Shown piece after piece: positions 3,750-54,312 of a DNA stretch of 64,000 nucleotides. The notes beneath the pieces are model-generated. The model searched no databases. It was not told the origin of the DNA and was given only the letters and a program-made list of their open reading frames with translations. The stretch is from Parabacteroides sp. FAFU027 (GTDB lineage: Bacteria; Bacteroidota; Bacteroidia; Bacteroidales; UBA7332): NCBI RefSeq assembly GCF_022808675.1, contig NZ_JAKZKV010000001.1:248001-312000 (forward strand). Reading direction: 5' to 3'. The translations under genes and the position numbers were made by a program. The first letter of the stretch is position 1; every line of letters starts with the position of its first letter.

Positions 3750-3980
3750 CAAAATCAAACTCATCTATTCACACTTATTTAGGTAAAAAAGAGTTGTTCT
3801 TCGGCAGATTTATTTTCAATGGGAGTCATTTGGAGCAATAGGGAGTTAAATGGAGCTAAATGAAACTCAGAGCCATTACCTGTAATCCTGAAAAGAAGAT
3901 TTACCCTAATCGACTTCCCATTTTCCAAAATAAAGTAGGATAAATAGAATCCCAACTTATCAAAAATCTTAACCCGGCAA

Positions 3981-4226
3981 ATATAAATGCCAACTCGGTT
4001 AAGACAAATGTAATCTCGGTATGCCAAAATACGATCTCAGAAGGTATAAATGCCATCTCGGCTGTTATGGATGTAATCTCGACTTTGCAAAATGCCATCT
4101 CGGCAGATATAAATGCCAACTTGCATAAGACAAATGTAATCTCGGTATGTCAAAATACGATCTCGGAAGGTATAAATGCCATCTCGGCTGATATGGATGT
4201 AATCTCGACTTTGCAAAATGCGAACT
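3981..4226. repeat. 21-bp tandem repeat, 12 units, in two 126-bp higher-order blocks
   Basis: The intergenic region between pyrB and rnpB holds contiguous 21-base units of the form AAATGCCATCTCGGCAGATAT. Six unit variants (126 bp) occur in a fixed order and the whole block is then repeated (3981-4106 and 4107-4226) with few changes; the last unit is incomplete. Because 21 is divisible by three, all reverse frames stay open and give heptad-repeat peptides, which I regard as spurious. The rest of the 3750-4368 gap shows no gene. Confidence 0.95.
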
Positions 4227-47845: not shown

Positions 47846-48153
47846 GAAGCAAAGCATCCCTGACAAATATGAGGATTATATCATAAATCCCGGTAGCTTA
47901 CGGTTTCTCTAAAATCCACTTCCCCCACAAAAGTACACACATTTCTAACCCTTTTACCAAGTCACATCAAATAAACACAAAAACAACAAACAATTTTACT
48001 CCGGCAACAAATCACATTATTATCGGGCGTTAAAGGCTTGCAATAATTCCATAGTGCATTACAAGGATTACGTAGCGTTACATTCCCCCATCAAGTCACA
48101 ATGGAGTGACAGTATAGGATAATACTACTTCAACACTGTCCATTTCCTGCCAT

Positions 48154-48245
48154 ACAATGAACATTATCGGAGCTACAATGTCCATTATCGGCGCTATAAT
48201 GTCCATTGTAGCTCGAATAATGTTCTCTATTCTCGCAATAATCCT
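48154..48245. repeat. 21-bp tandem repeat, four units and a part
   Basis: Units start at 48154, 48175, 48196, 48217 and 48238, with the form ACAATGTCCATTATCGGCGCT. The period equals that of the array before rnpB but the sequence is unrelated. Confidence 0.85.
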
Positions 48246-51056: not shown

Positions 51057-53378
51057 ATGTACAAACTTCCTTCAACGCTTACGGACGACATTGCCTATTT
51101 CGGCACGTTGATTGACGACTTCCAACAGGGAAAAACCGAACCGGTCAAATTTAAGGGAATCCGCGTCCCGATGGGGATTTACGAACAGCGCAAAGACGGC
51201 ACCTACATGGTGCGGGTGCGCACTACCGGAGGTTTTATCACCCCGCAGCAACTCAAACAGGTGGCATTGACAGCACAGGCACATCAATCGCCTTTTCTGC
51301 ACATCACCACCCGTCAGGAGATTCAGATTCACCACATAGGCATCGACCAGGTGAAAACGATCCTGCCCGAACTGCAACAGGTGGAGCTTTCGTCAAAAGG
51401 CGGCGGTGGTAACACGACCCGAAACATCCTGGTAGATGTCGAAAGCGGCATCAGTGCCGAAGAGGAGTTCGACGTACTGCCTTATGCCATTGACCTCACC
51501 ACCCGCCTGATTGCCGAGGCAGATTCATTCACGCTGCCCCGTAAACTGAAGATTGCTTTCTCGGCACATGCCGCTAACGGTGACCTGGCATTGGTCAATG
51601 ACCTCGGCTTTGTGGCTAAGACCGTGGATGGCAAACGTGGTTTTACCGTTTACCTCGGTGGCTCGCTCGCTTCACACGCTACACTGGGCTGGAAAGTCTT
51701 TGACTTTGCACCGGAAGAAGAGCTTTATTATATTGCTGAAGCGGCTAAACAGTTCTTCTCCGCGCACGGTAACCGCAAGAACCGCCACAAGGCACGTATC
51801 CGTTACATTTTCTATAAACTGGGTGAAGAGAAAACGCTCGAACTATTCTTCAATGCCTACAACGAGCTGAAGAAAGACCCGAGCCTGAAATATACTCCGG
51901 GCAAACTGGATGTGCAGCTCACTACTCCCTCTTTTGCTCCTGCAACCATTGAAAGCGCCGCTTTCGAAGCCTGGAAAAACCGCTATGCACAACCGCAGAA
52001 ACAGGCTGGATTATTTGCAATAACCATACCGGTGGAACATGGAAATGCACCCGCCGAGACCTTCCTCAAGATTGCTAAGTTTACCGAAGCATTCGGCACT
52101 GATGTGATACGCTTTACGGTTCGCCAAAACATCCAGCTGCGAAATATTCCTGAAGCATATCTTGGCAATGTCTATCAGTTGGTGAGCGAATTGAGACAAA
52201 AGGCAGATGTGCCTGCTTTGGTCAACAATGTTATCTCCTGTACAGGTGCTGATACATGCCGCTTGGGAATCTGTTTGCCCAAAGGTGCAGCGGCCGCCCT
52301 TCGCCAGAAACTGAACGAGAGCAAACTGCCGGTGGATGAGCTGAAAGATTTGCACATCAACATCTCCGGTTGTCCAAACTCCTGCGCACAACAGCGCTGG
52401 GCTGACCTCGGATTTGCCGGTCGCGTGTCACGCAACGATAGCCAGAAGATGTTCCCTGCATATACCATCTTCGCCGGAGCCGATCGTACGGGAAACGGCG
52501 AATTGGGCAATCCGTTCGGGGTGGTAAGCGCCAAGGATTTGCCTGACTTCACCCATGATTTGCTTGAGGAATATTTGAAAGTAAAAGCGAAATACGCTTC
52601 ATTCCGCGAATACATTCAGCAGGAAGGAGCTAAAGCGATTGCTCTTTTGACCGAGAAATACGCCGATGTACCGTCATTCGAAGAAAACCCGGATTACTAC
52701 TACGACTGGGGTAGCACCGAGCAGTTCTCGGTGGTAAACAAAGGACCGGCAGAATGTTCTGCGGGACTGTTTGACCTGATAGATGTGGACCTCAAAACCA
52801 TCCAAACCGCTCTGGACTCATTGGAGGGTGAAGTGGATTTACAGAAAGTAAACCAACTGCTCTACACCATCGTTTTTGCATCGTCACGCATGTTGCTCGT
52901 GACCCGCGGTGCCGAGGCCAAAACAACAGAAGAGACCTTCGACCTGTTTATTGATAAATTCATCAAAGAGGGATACGTCAGCAAAGAGTTTACCTCGCTG
53001 GTGGAAGCTGCGAAAGCGGATCAGAAATATGACTTTGGCAAAAACAAAGAGGCAGTGATTGCCTTGGCCAAAGAGGTCATCGCACTCTATGAAAGCATGG
53101 ACGATTCGCTCCAGTTTAAGGTAAAAGCGGAACCGGCAAAAGAAGAAAAGGCAGAAGCCGCAAGAGTGAAAGACCTCCGCCGTGTAGCTTGCCCATTCAA
53201 CTTCGTAAAAACCAAGATTGAGCTTTCCACCCTCAAATCGGGCGATCTGCTTGAAATCCTGCTTGATGACGGCCAACCTATCGAAAACGTGCCGGGTTCG
53301 GTTCGCAACGAAGGACATGAGGTGGTATCAGCCACTCCCGTGCAGGACTACTGGAAGGTACTGATTCGTAAAGCGTAA
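51057..53378 (+). CDS. Sulfite/nitrite reductase fused to a C-terminal TusA domain
   Basis: A 773-residue cytoplasmic protein. Two ferredoxin-type half domains and the siroheme/[4Fe-4S] site (CTGADTC, Cys395 and Cys401; GCPNSC, Cys439 and Cys443) mark it as a siroheme sulfite or nitrite reductase. A helical linker (about 560-690) leads to a TusA-like domain from residue 700, with the sulfur-carrying Cys712 in RVACPFNFVKTKIELSTLKSGD. The fusion points to sulfite rather than nitrite, with the sulfide passed to a carrier. It has the sulfur-type promoter and precedes the carrier cluster. Confidence 0.92.
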   Translation: MYKLPSTLTDDIAYFGTLIDDFQQGKTEPVKFKGIRVPMGIYEQRKDGTYMVRVRTTGGFITPQQLKQVALTAQAHQSPFLHITTRQEIQIHHIGIDQVKTILPELQQVELSSKGGGGNTTRNILVDVESGISAEEEFDVLPYAIDLTTRLIAEADSFTLPRKLKIAFSAHAANGDLALVNDLGFVAKTVDGKRGFTVYLGGSLASHATLGWKVFDFAPEEELYYIAEAAKQFFSAHGNRKNRHKARIRYIFYKLGEEKTLELFFNAYNELKKDPSLKYTPGKLDVQLTTPSFAPATIESAAFEAWKNRYAQPQKQAGLFAITIPVEHGNAPAETFLKIAKFTEAFGTDVIRFTVRQNIQLRNIPEAYLGNVYQLVSELRQKADVPALVNNVISCTGADTCRLGICLPKGAAAALRQKLNESKLPVDELKDLHINISGCPNSCAQQRWADLGFAGRVSRNDSQKMFPAYTIFAGADRTGNGELGNPFGVVSAKDLPDFTHDLLEEYLKVKAKYASFREYIQQEGAKAIALLTEKYADVPSFEENPDYYYDWGSTEQFSVVNKGPAECSAGLFDLIDVDLKTIQTALDSLEGEVDLQKVNQLLYTIVFASSRMLLVTRGAEAKTTEETFDLFIDKFIKEGYVSKEFTSLVEAAKADQKYDFGKNKEAVIALAKEVIALYESMDDSLQFKVKAEPAKEEKAEAARVKDLRRVACPFNFVKTKIELSTLKSGDLLEILLDDGQPIENVPGSVRNEGHEVVSATPVQDYWKVLIRKA

Positions 53379-53460
53379 GTTTCATTTTCCATAAATAAGA
53401 ATAGCGTCATTCTCTGTCTCACGGCAGCGGGTGGCGCTTTCTTATAATATTAAGGTGATG

Positions 53461-53543
53461 AATACGCCCGTATTAAGGCGTCCAATACGGGCGTATTGAG
53501 GTATCGCATACGGGCGTATGGGGATGTCGCATACGCTCGTATG
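53461..53543. repeat. Phased palindrome array, family A (4 units, 23 bp)
   Basis: AATACGGGCGTATT-type palindromes centred at 53467.5, 53490.5, 53513.5 and 53536.5, exactly 23 bp apart. Confidence 0.95.
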
Positions 53544-53614
53544 TTCTCATCGAATATTACCCTATATTATTTTGGAATATTGCTTTTGCAAATCCCCAGT
53601 GCGGGATAAAGGGT

Positions 53615-53701
53615 TTATCTCGTACGAGATAAGGTGTCGATCTAATACGAGATAAGCCCATTATCCCGTATTAGATAAGATCTATATCTAACGTTGTAGC
53701 G
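53615..53701. repeat. Phased palindrome array, family B (3-4 units, 23 bp)
   Basis: The perfect 18-base palindrome TTATCTCGTACGAGATAA at 53615-53632 and two variants are centred at 53623.5, 53646.5 and 53669.5; a decayed fourth follows and merges into the 64-bp duplication. Confidence 0.93.
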
Positions 53702-53799
53702 TCAGGCACTATCGCCCGTTAGCGGGTGACACTACTAGATAAGATCTATATCTAACGTTGTAGCGTCAGGCACTATCGCCCGTTAGCGGGTGACACTAC
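53672..53799. repeat. Exact 64-bp tandem duplication with a hairpin
   Basis: Bases 53672-53735 are repeated without change at 53736-53799. Each copy ends in a long imperfect hairpin with outer arms GTAGCGTCA / TGACACTAC and inner arms CGCCCG / CGGGTG. Confidence 0.97.
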
Positions 53800-53816
53800 T
53801 ATGTTATTCAGGGAGG

Positions 53817-53903
53817 CTGAATCGTACGATTCAGGGTGTCAGAGTCGGGCGATTCAGAGGGTCTGAATCGCTCGGTTCAGGGTGGCTGAATCGTACGGGC
53901 GGG
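53817..53903. repeat. Phased palindrome array, family C (4 units, 23 bp)
   Basis: The perfect 18-base palindrome CTGAATCGTACGATTCAG at 53817-53834 and three variants are centred at 53825.5, 53848.5, 53871.5 and 53894.5. Confidence 0.95.
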
Positions 53904-53911
53904 TTTCGGGG

Positions 53912-53976
53912 GTAAACCCGGGTTAGTTTCACACGTAAACTCGTACGGGTTTCACCGGTAAACTAACGTTAGTTTA
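53912..53976. repeat. Phased palindrome array, family D (3 units, 23 bp)
   Basis: GTAAAC starts at 53912, 53935 and 53958; the last unit contains the perfect 18-base palindrome TAAACTAACGTTAGTTTA (53959-53976). The array stops 18 bp before operator site h. Confidence 0.93.
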
Positions 53977-53993
53977 AGTGCCAAACCCGCCAT

Positions 53994-54063
53994 ATCCCAT
54001 AAACAGGGTAGATAAATGCCCCTTTTGTGGGATTTCTTTGCCCTCCGCTTTGGCGTTACTTTG
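53994..54063 (+). promoter_or_regulatory. Sulfur-regulon operator and -7 box, site h (carrier cluster)
   Basis: Outer arms ATCCCATAAA / TTTGTGGGAT (one G-T change), inner GGGTA / TGCCC, centre 54013.5. The -7 box TTACTTTG starts at 54056, 42.5 bp from the centre. Confidence 0.8.
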
Positions 54064-54096: not shown

Positions 54097-54312
54097 ATGA
54101 GCAACATTATTGTAAATGGAAAATTACAGGCGATTGAAACCGAAAACATCTCGGTGATCGACCTGATTAAACTGAACAACGTGCAACAACCCGACATGGT
54201 ATCGGTACAGTTGAACGAGGAGTTTGTTCTTCGTGATAATTTCGAATCGACCCTTGTAAAAGAAGGCGATGAGGTGGATTTTCTTTACTTCATGGGTGGA
54301 GGCGGTAAGTAA
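54097..54312 (+). CDS. ThiS-like sulfur carrier protein with masked C-terminus (HcyS-like)
   Basis: A 71-residue ubiquitin-like protein: MSNIIVNGKLQAIETENISVIDLI, then VSVQLNEEFVLRDNFESTLVKEGDEVDFLYF and the tail MGGGGK. ThiS/MoaD/HcyS-type carriers receive sulfur as a thiocarboxylate on the terminal Gly-Gly. Here a Lys follows the glycines, so the last residue must be removed first, as in HcyS and some CysO-like carriers; a JAMM protease is encoded four genes on. The ATG at 54097 is chosen over an upstream frame that spans the promoter. With metY present, a role in homocysteine synthesis is more likely than thiazole synthesis, and no thiG lies nearby. Confidence 0.88.
   Translation: MSNIIVNGKLQAIETENISVIDLIKLNNVQQPDMVSVQLNEEFVLRDNFESTLVKEGDEVDFLYFMGGGGK

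Follow-up and report, generated by a model that had tools for sequence, protein, structure and literature searches.

Between a sulfite reductase gene and a sulfur-carrier gene of Parabacteroides sp. FAFU027 lies a run of short palindromes whose sequence changes from one group to the next while the distance between units stays the same. We wanted to know what kind of element this is. The original prediction, made from the letters of the window (the whole stretch of 64,000 nt that was analysed), described four palindrome families and an exact duplication, and named no known element that would fit. In the text below, G000 is the source genome, C1, C2 and so on are its contigs, and G002 is a sister genome, an independent metagenome-assembled genome of the same genus. 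The features of the region are as follows.

51057..53378, plus strand: upstream gene, sulfite/nitrite reductase with a C-terminal TusA domain (open reading frame; Pfam NIR_SIR and TusA)
53459..53545: family A, four palindromes of the AATACG-NN-CGTATT type at 23-bp pitch (53459-53476, 53482-53499, 53505-53522, 53528-53545)
53551..53568: decayed fifth A unit, CGAATATTACCCTATATT
53615..53678: family B, three palindromes of the TTATCTCGTACGAGATAA type at 23-bp pitch (53615-53632, 53638-53655, 53661-53678)
53672..53801: perfect 64-bp tandem duplication (2.0 copies, 100% matches)
53817..53903: family C, three palindromes of the CTGAATCGTACGATTCAG type (53817-53834, 53840-53857, 53863-53880) and a half unit (53886-53903)
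53913..53976: family D, three palindromes of the TAAACTAACGTTAGTTTA type at 23-bp pitch (53913-53930, 53936-53953, 53959-53976)
54097..54312, plus strand: downstream gene, ThiS sulfur-carrier protein

The array occupies 53459-53976 and begins about 80 bp past the stop of the sulfite reductase-TusA fusion gene. The unit coordinates agree with the prediction of four families with 3-4 units each at exactly 23 bp: units are imperfect palindromes of 18 bp, the start-to-start distance is 23 bp throughout every family, and the summed score of the 23-bp palindrome chains is 81.5, while the best of 1000 dinucleotide-preserving shuffles gave 11.9. The predicted 64-bp duplication is indeed exact, and the repeated piece is made of palindromic stretches of about 23 bp and about 41 bp. 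The palindromic design of the units needs one correction. Matching is good at the outer and middle base pairs, but pairing of the central dinucleotide is at about the level of chance (the central pair is matched in 15 of 54 units), so we regard each unit as a pair of 8-9-bp half-sites with a free centre between them. Past the array, at 53990-54030 and upstream of thiS, is TATCCCATAAACAGGGTAGATAAATGCCCCTTTTGTGGGATTT, which is conserved and recurs, slightly altered, upstream of an apparent cysteine synthase gene in the sister genome (L011, around 1501-1560). This stretch is a candidate promoter or sulfur-regulon motif.

Since the sister genome was assembled independently and has the mosaic too, the mosaic is not an assembly error, which was one way that the prediction could have failed. 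The two mosaics correspond unit for unit and are in equivalent positions. The main difference is that the sister genome has a single copy of the 64-bp piece, which means that the duplication is recent and that the remaining mosaic predates the split. A Paludibacter relative has no array 3' of its sulfite reductase gene; the next gene differs there, so it does not provide a clean empty site.

Several familiar classes of repeat were considered and rejected. A CRISPR array does not fit because the units diverge and just 5 bp separate them, in line with the predicted lack of unique spacers. We found no match in a plasmid collection, and no Rfam family matched near its gathering score.

To look for further arrays we scanned 2.05 Mb of the source genome (C1-C4, less than half of it) for palindrome chains of any motif and any spacing. 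Chains with a score of at least 24 numbered 14 at a spacing of 21, two at 22 and five at 23; all other spacings from 16 to 40 gave 0 or 1 chain each, with multiples near 41, 42 and 44 recurring. The search for other 23-bp arrays, which the prediction had proposed, turned up several, with other sequences:

C1:323150: an A array, then remnants of B, C and D in window order
C1:378000: two further families, E and F
C3:14150: family F
C1:801500 and C2:409000: family G

At C1:323150 the same decayed fifth unit comes after the A units, and family D has a second copy at C17:45733. That the spacing is kept while the sequence changes was the central claim of the prediction, and it applies well beyond the window, with the 23-bp pitch found over unrelated sequences at these loci and at the Parabacteroides and Treponema loci described below.

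Between the source genome and the sister genome, three other orthologous arrays have gained or lost whole units. Each differs by exactly two units, which is 42 bp at two loci with 21-bp units and 46 bp at the 23-bp locus with families E and F. Within the 21-bp GTCC family, changes between the two genomes are rarer in the core half-sites (5/184) than in the rest (24/304; Fisher p = 0.018).

Intergenic tandem arrays in the same 2.05 Mb have unit lengths almost only near 11, 21-23, 41-43 and 82-83 bp, which comes close to full turns of the DNA helix (41, 10 and 5 arrays at 21, 22 and 23 bp, respectively; the window has examples at 3975-4221 and 48153-48223). Several of the 21-bp families are palindromic and dispersed, and we found no shared flanking gene beside the 21-bp arrays. 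Palindromic or tandem arrays of 21-23 bp also occur in relatives at the family or order level (G003, C1:48012 and 69100; G020, C1:8231 and 9647; G001, C2:161), with sequences that differ from those of the window. A different type of repeat, of about 70 bp, lies at C2:530299-530373 (L089:10299-10373) and has about a dozen dispersed copies in the sister genome.

What some of the 23-bp arrays do have in common is a neighbouring gene. Its product combines an HU-like DNA-binding domain (HU-DNA_bdg, PF14848) with an Ig-like domain (DUF4469, PF14734), and we refer to the gene as an HU-DUF4469 gene. The source genome has four PF14848 genes, two of them within the 2.05 Mb that was read and the others on C9 and C14. 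A 23-bp array comes after each of the two HU-DUF4469 genes in the part that was read, at distances of 18 and 76 bp from the gene end. We noticed this link post hoc, and then tested it in other genomes. For each gene we determined which lag between 15 and 35 gave the highest self-similarity in the 230 bp 3' of the gene, and used 32/46 matches at lag 23 as the threshold of strength.

In Parabacteroides distasonis TSDC17.2-1.1, palindromic repeats come directly 3' of the stop in 6/6 HU-DUF4469 loci. Four loci were examined after the idea had formed. Treponema saccharophilum was positive at one of two (plasmid pTS2 has the array, pTS1 does not), as were the gut phage contigs (MT838150 weakly positive, MT836435 negative). 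On contig C47 of the sister genome (locus L010), a C-family array starts 1 bp past the HU-DUF4469 stop; this locus was found through its array, so we do not count it as a test of the link. The best lag was exactly 23 in 10/12 HU-DUF4469 loci and 24 in one, and nine of the ten lag-23 loci reach 32/46 matches. Among control genes of the source genome, 5/1330 3' flanks (about 0.4%) reach this threshold, and two of these five are the HU genes themselves. The 5' flanks of the HU-DUF4469 loci showed no lag-23 signal (0/13). Overall, 11/13 loci are positive, in Bacteroidales and one Treponema, with MT836435 and pTS1 lacking a 23-bp array; most of the comparison loci come from the one P. distasonis strain, whose 'plasmids' resemble pieces of chromosome. 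The linked arrays have a 23- or 24-bp pitch and a sequence private to each gene.

Besides the two negative loci and the one array at 24-bp pitch, it counts against explaining the arrays by this link that PF14848 is absent from most of the sampled genomes of the order and that the relative G020 has 23-bp repeats, yet a search found no PF14848 there. Its two arrays flank an ATPase-like gene. Scans of viral contigs for further relatives of the HU-DUF4469 proteins gave none except two single-domain HU proteins on IMG/VR contigs (L191 and L192), whose genes have no clear array at the 3' side. These two proteins share a C-terminal GGGDSESPDEI tail with the HU-DUF4469 proteins of P. distasonis, and this common acidic tail may act as a signal for docking or targeting. 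The protein family profile has a whole-length match to PDB 4fmr (E 5e-61), which is a solved structure of the family without an assigned function. Our literature search found no paper that uses the name DUF4469.

We compared the units of the mosaic to the arrays that follow HU-DUF4469 genes. The half-sites of family A, and likewise those of the A units at C1:323150, agree at 8/8 positions with the array that follows the HU-DUF4469 gene at C2:408242. Family C is identical to the array behind the gene on C47 of the sister genome (18/18), and among 194 loci the C motif occurs only at the window locus, at its orthologue and behind that gene. Two arrays elsewhere in the source genome also have partners: C1:801500 agrees over the whole unit with the array 3' of the C2 HU gene (18/18), and C1:378000 agrees at 17/18 with the array 3' of the C3 HU gene. 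Against the P. distasonis arrays, these same five (window A, window C, C1:323150, C1:801500 and C1:378000) reach at most 6/8. Families B and D reach at most 5/8 with all of the gene-linked arrays compared, and we found no cognate gene for them. P. distasonis has a similar case, with an array about 8 bp 3' of an ABC permease gene, between convergent genes, that is of the same family as one of the HU-linked arrays there.

With family C identical to an array behind an HU gene and family A sharing its half-sites with another, we call the window array an orphan. Being an orphan copy also accounts for why the HU-DUF4469 gene was out of sight of a reader who had only the window. The source genome's own orthologue of the C-type gene, at C14:42145-42864, has an open frame of just 140 aa, and its match to the gene on C47 ends 71 bp before the stop position, short of the array. 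Judged from this, the C-type gene is probably a pseudogene in the source genome, while the window retains the C sites.

Our explanation is that the window mosaic is an orphan and composite member of a two-part system of HU-Ig gene and array, and we give this reading as a whole a probability of roughly 0.6. That the window array belongs to the HU-linked class we consider very likely, as it has at least three dyad units at 23-bp pitch and shares half-sites with HU-gene-linked arrays in two of its families, A and C, though not in B and D. The first part of the system would be the gene for the protein with HU-like and Ig-like domains, and the second would be 3-6 dyad-symmetric sites at 23-bp pitch directly 3' of that gene, with a site sequence private to each gene and with copies of the array also placed 3' of unrelated genes. 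It is probable that the HU-DUF4469 protein binds its array. Each dyad would then be bound by one homodimer, and the fixed pitch would let adjacent dimers pack into a nucleoprotein stack, perhaps via the Ig-like domain. Located between the sulfite reductase gene and thiS, the window array would present sites to as many as four HU-Ig specificities, and is probably a composite of predicted dimer-binding sites for several of these proteins. At the 3' ends of genes, such a stack would most likely be a transcription boundary or roadblock, or else a DNA-organising node. We favour a role at gene 3' ends because most arrays start within about 150 bp of a stop and some lie between convergent genes, away from any promoter. 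A boundary or roadblock is our first choice, with a selfish pair and autoregulation as serious rivals; by itself, the proposal that the arrays act as a 3' boundary is tentative and has the odds against it.

The proteins IHF and HU are nucleoid proteins, and HU is usually thought of as a packer of the chromosome with weak sequence specificity; the difference here is that each gene comes with a palindrome array of its own. Expansions in the Bacteroidetes are reportedly discussed in a published computational study of the clades of the HU superfamily. The order of a DNA-binding protein gene and then its sites is found in partition centromeres, where, as in sopB-sopC of the F plasmid, tandem repeats carrying inverted repeats follow the gene. 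The HU-linked arrays differ in having chromosomal orphans and 3-6 units, and we rejected a centromere of the sopC/parS type, as none of the genes annotated around the P. distasonis and Treponema loci is named as a ParA-type ATPase. One HU-DUF4469 locus has two AAA ATPases some kb upstream.

The closest published repeat is BrickBuilt, a minisatellite/MITE of Porphyromonas gingivalis with intergenic tandem units of 23 nt for which dyad symmetry was noted (PMC4596501). It gains and loses whole units between strains, and among its 38 flanking genes is one with the annotation of a DNA-binding protein from the HU family, PF00216 (PMC4596501). The window array shares the 23-nt tandem unit and the order Bacteroidales with it. 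However, BrickBuilt is one sequence family that has a leader and a tail as well as IS5-like terminal repeats (PMC4596501), whereas arrays of the window type come in several sequence families that have only the pitch in common, and they are linked to PF14848/DUF4469 genes. The terminal inverted repeat of BrickBuilt, GAGACCTTTGCA, is absent (the best match has 4/12 mismatches), and on this ground we rejected the array as a BrickBuilt copy. With this and the searches above, the prediction that no named element fits still stands, and the pairing of an HU-Ig gene with a private 23-base palindrome array is so far undescribed.

Could the gene and the array instead be a mobile pair, like REP/RAYT or a MITE, whose orphans are non-autonomous copies of no service to the host? 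In favour of this, several loci have orphans with half-sites in common with gene-linked arrays, arrays are placed behind unrelated genes, and at C1:323150 part of the window element is found again in the order A-B-C-D. The REP/BIME and RAYT system is similar in having a gene with cognate palindromes adjoining, orphans scattered between genes and one family per gene, but its protein is an HUH transposase (PMC3733652), compared to a protein of HU fold and Ig domain and a fixed 23-bp tandem pitch here. As a REP/BIME element the array was rejected, since units A-D have no GTAG or CGTC tag in common and the linked genes are HU-DUF4469. We saw no transposase or HUH nuclease adjoining the arrays, and neither a target duplication nor an empty site. 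Within a family, the similarity does not extend past the array, flanks and ends are not shared, and the compared loci keep their position in the sister genome. We consider a selfish repeat unlikely.

We think it similarly unlikely that the arrays are operators, with which an HU-DUF4469 protein controls the operon that follows its own gene (for example the fimbrillin genes in P. distasonis) and the orphans form a regulon. At most loci the next gene is co-directional and the array fills the gap, as operators would. However, several arrays lie between convergent genes (L185, L063 and L194), where no downstream promoter is expected, and thiS in the window is preceded by a conserved motif of its own past the array.

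An array of RNA hairpins, which would protect or terminate transcripts at mRNA 3' ends, is improbable. The stretch folds strongly as RNA (z -10.5 against shuffles) and the arrays are located behind stop codons, but palindromes fold well irrespective of their role, so that the folding is no proof of one. In 54 units oriented with the upstream gene, we counted 26 G.U and 28 A.C oppositions, which is not the sense-strand excess of wobble pairs that a structured RNA should have. There are no U-runs 3' of the hairpins, and the Rfam search, as described, gave no match. The lack of a G.U excess together with the free centre leads us to prefer dimer sites in double-stranded DNA. As a second test of base-pairing selection we looked at covariation within units. 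The large 21-bp GTCC family shows little if any of it, and the signal is clearly positive in places with two alternating palindrome types. In loose form, the half-site NNNANACG is found again across families, as it would be with relatives of a single protein family differing in outer bases. The last rival, functionless tandem palindromes left by hairpin-driven replication errors, would fit whole units gained or lost two at once in 3/3 cases and the recent 64-bp duplication, but it is very improbable, as it leaves unexplained the constant 23-bp pitch over unrelated sequences and the link to one gene family.

If the two-part reading is true, specificity evolves as pairs of protein and site within one HU fold, and DUF4469 proteins get their first testable role. 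A class of Bacteroidales minisatellites would be explained, possibly including BrickBuilt. Both partners are present at each locus and the family has a structure in 4fmr, so the idea is directly testable, and the loci would offer ready-made orthogonal DNA-protein pairs for study. In its broadest form, which we put forward tentatively and hold slightly less probable than its opposite, widespread sequence-specific HU-Ig proteins with private, fast-diverging dyad arrays may make up many orthogonal nucleoprotein systems per genome, and orphan and composite arrays like the one in the window may wire several of them to single sites at the ends of genes.
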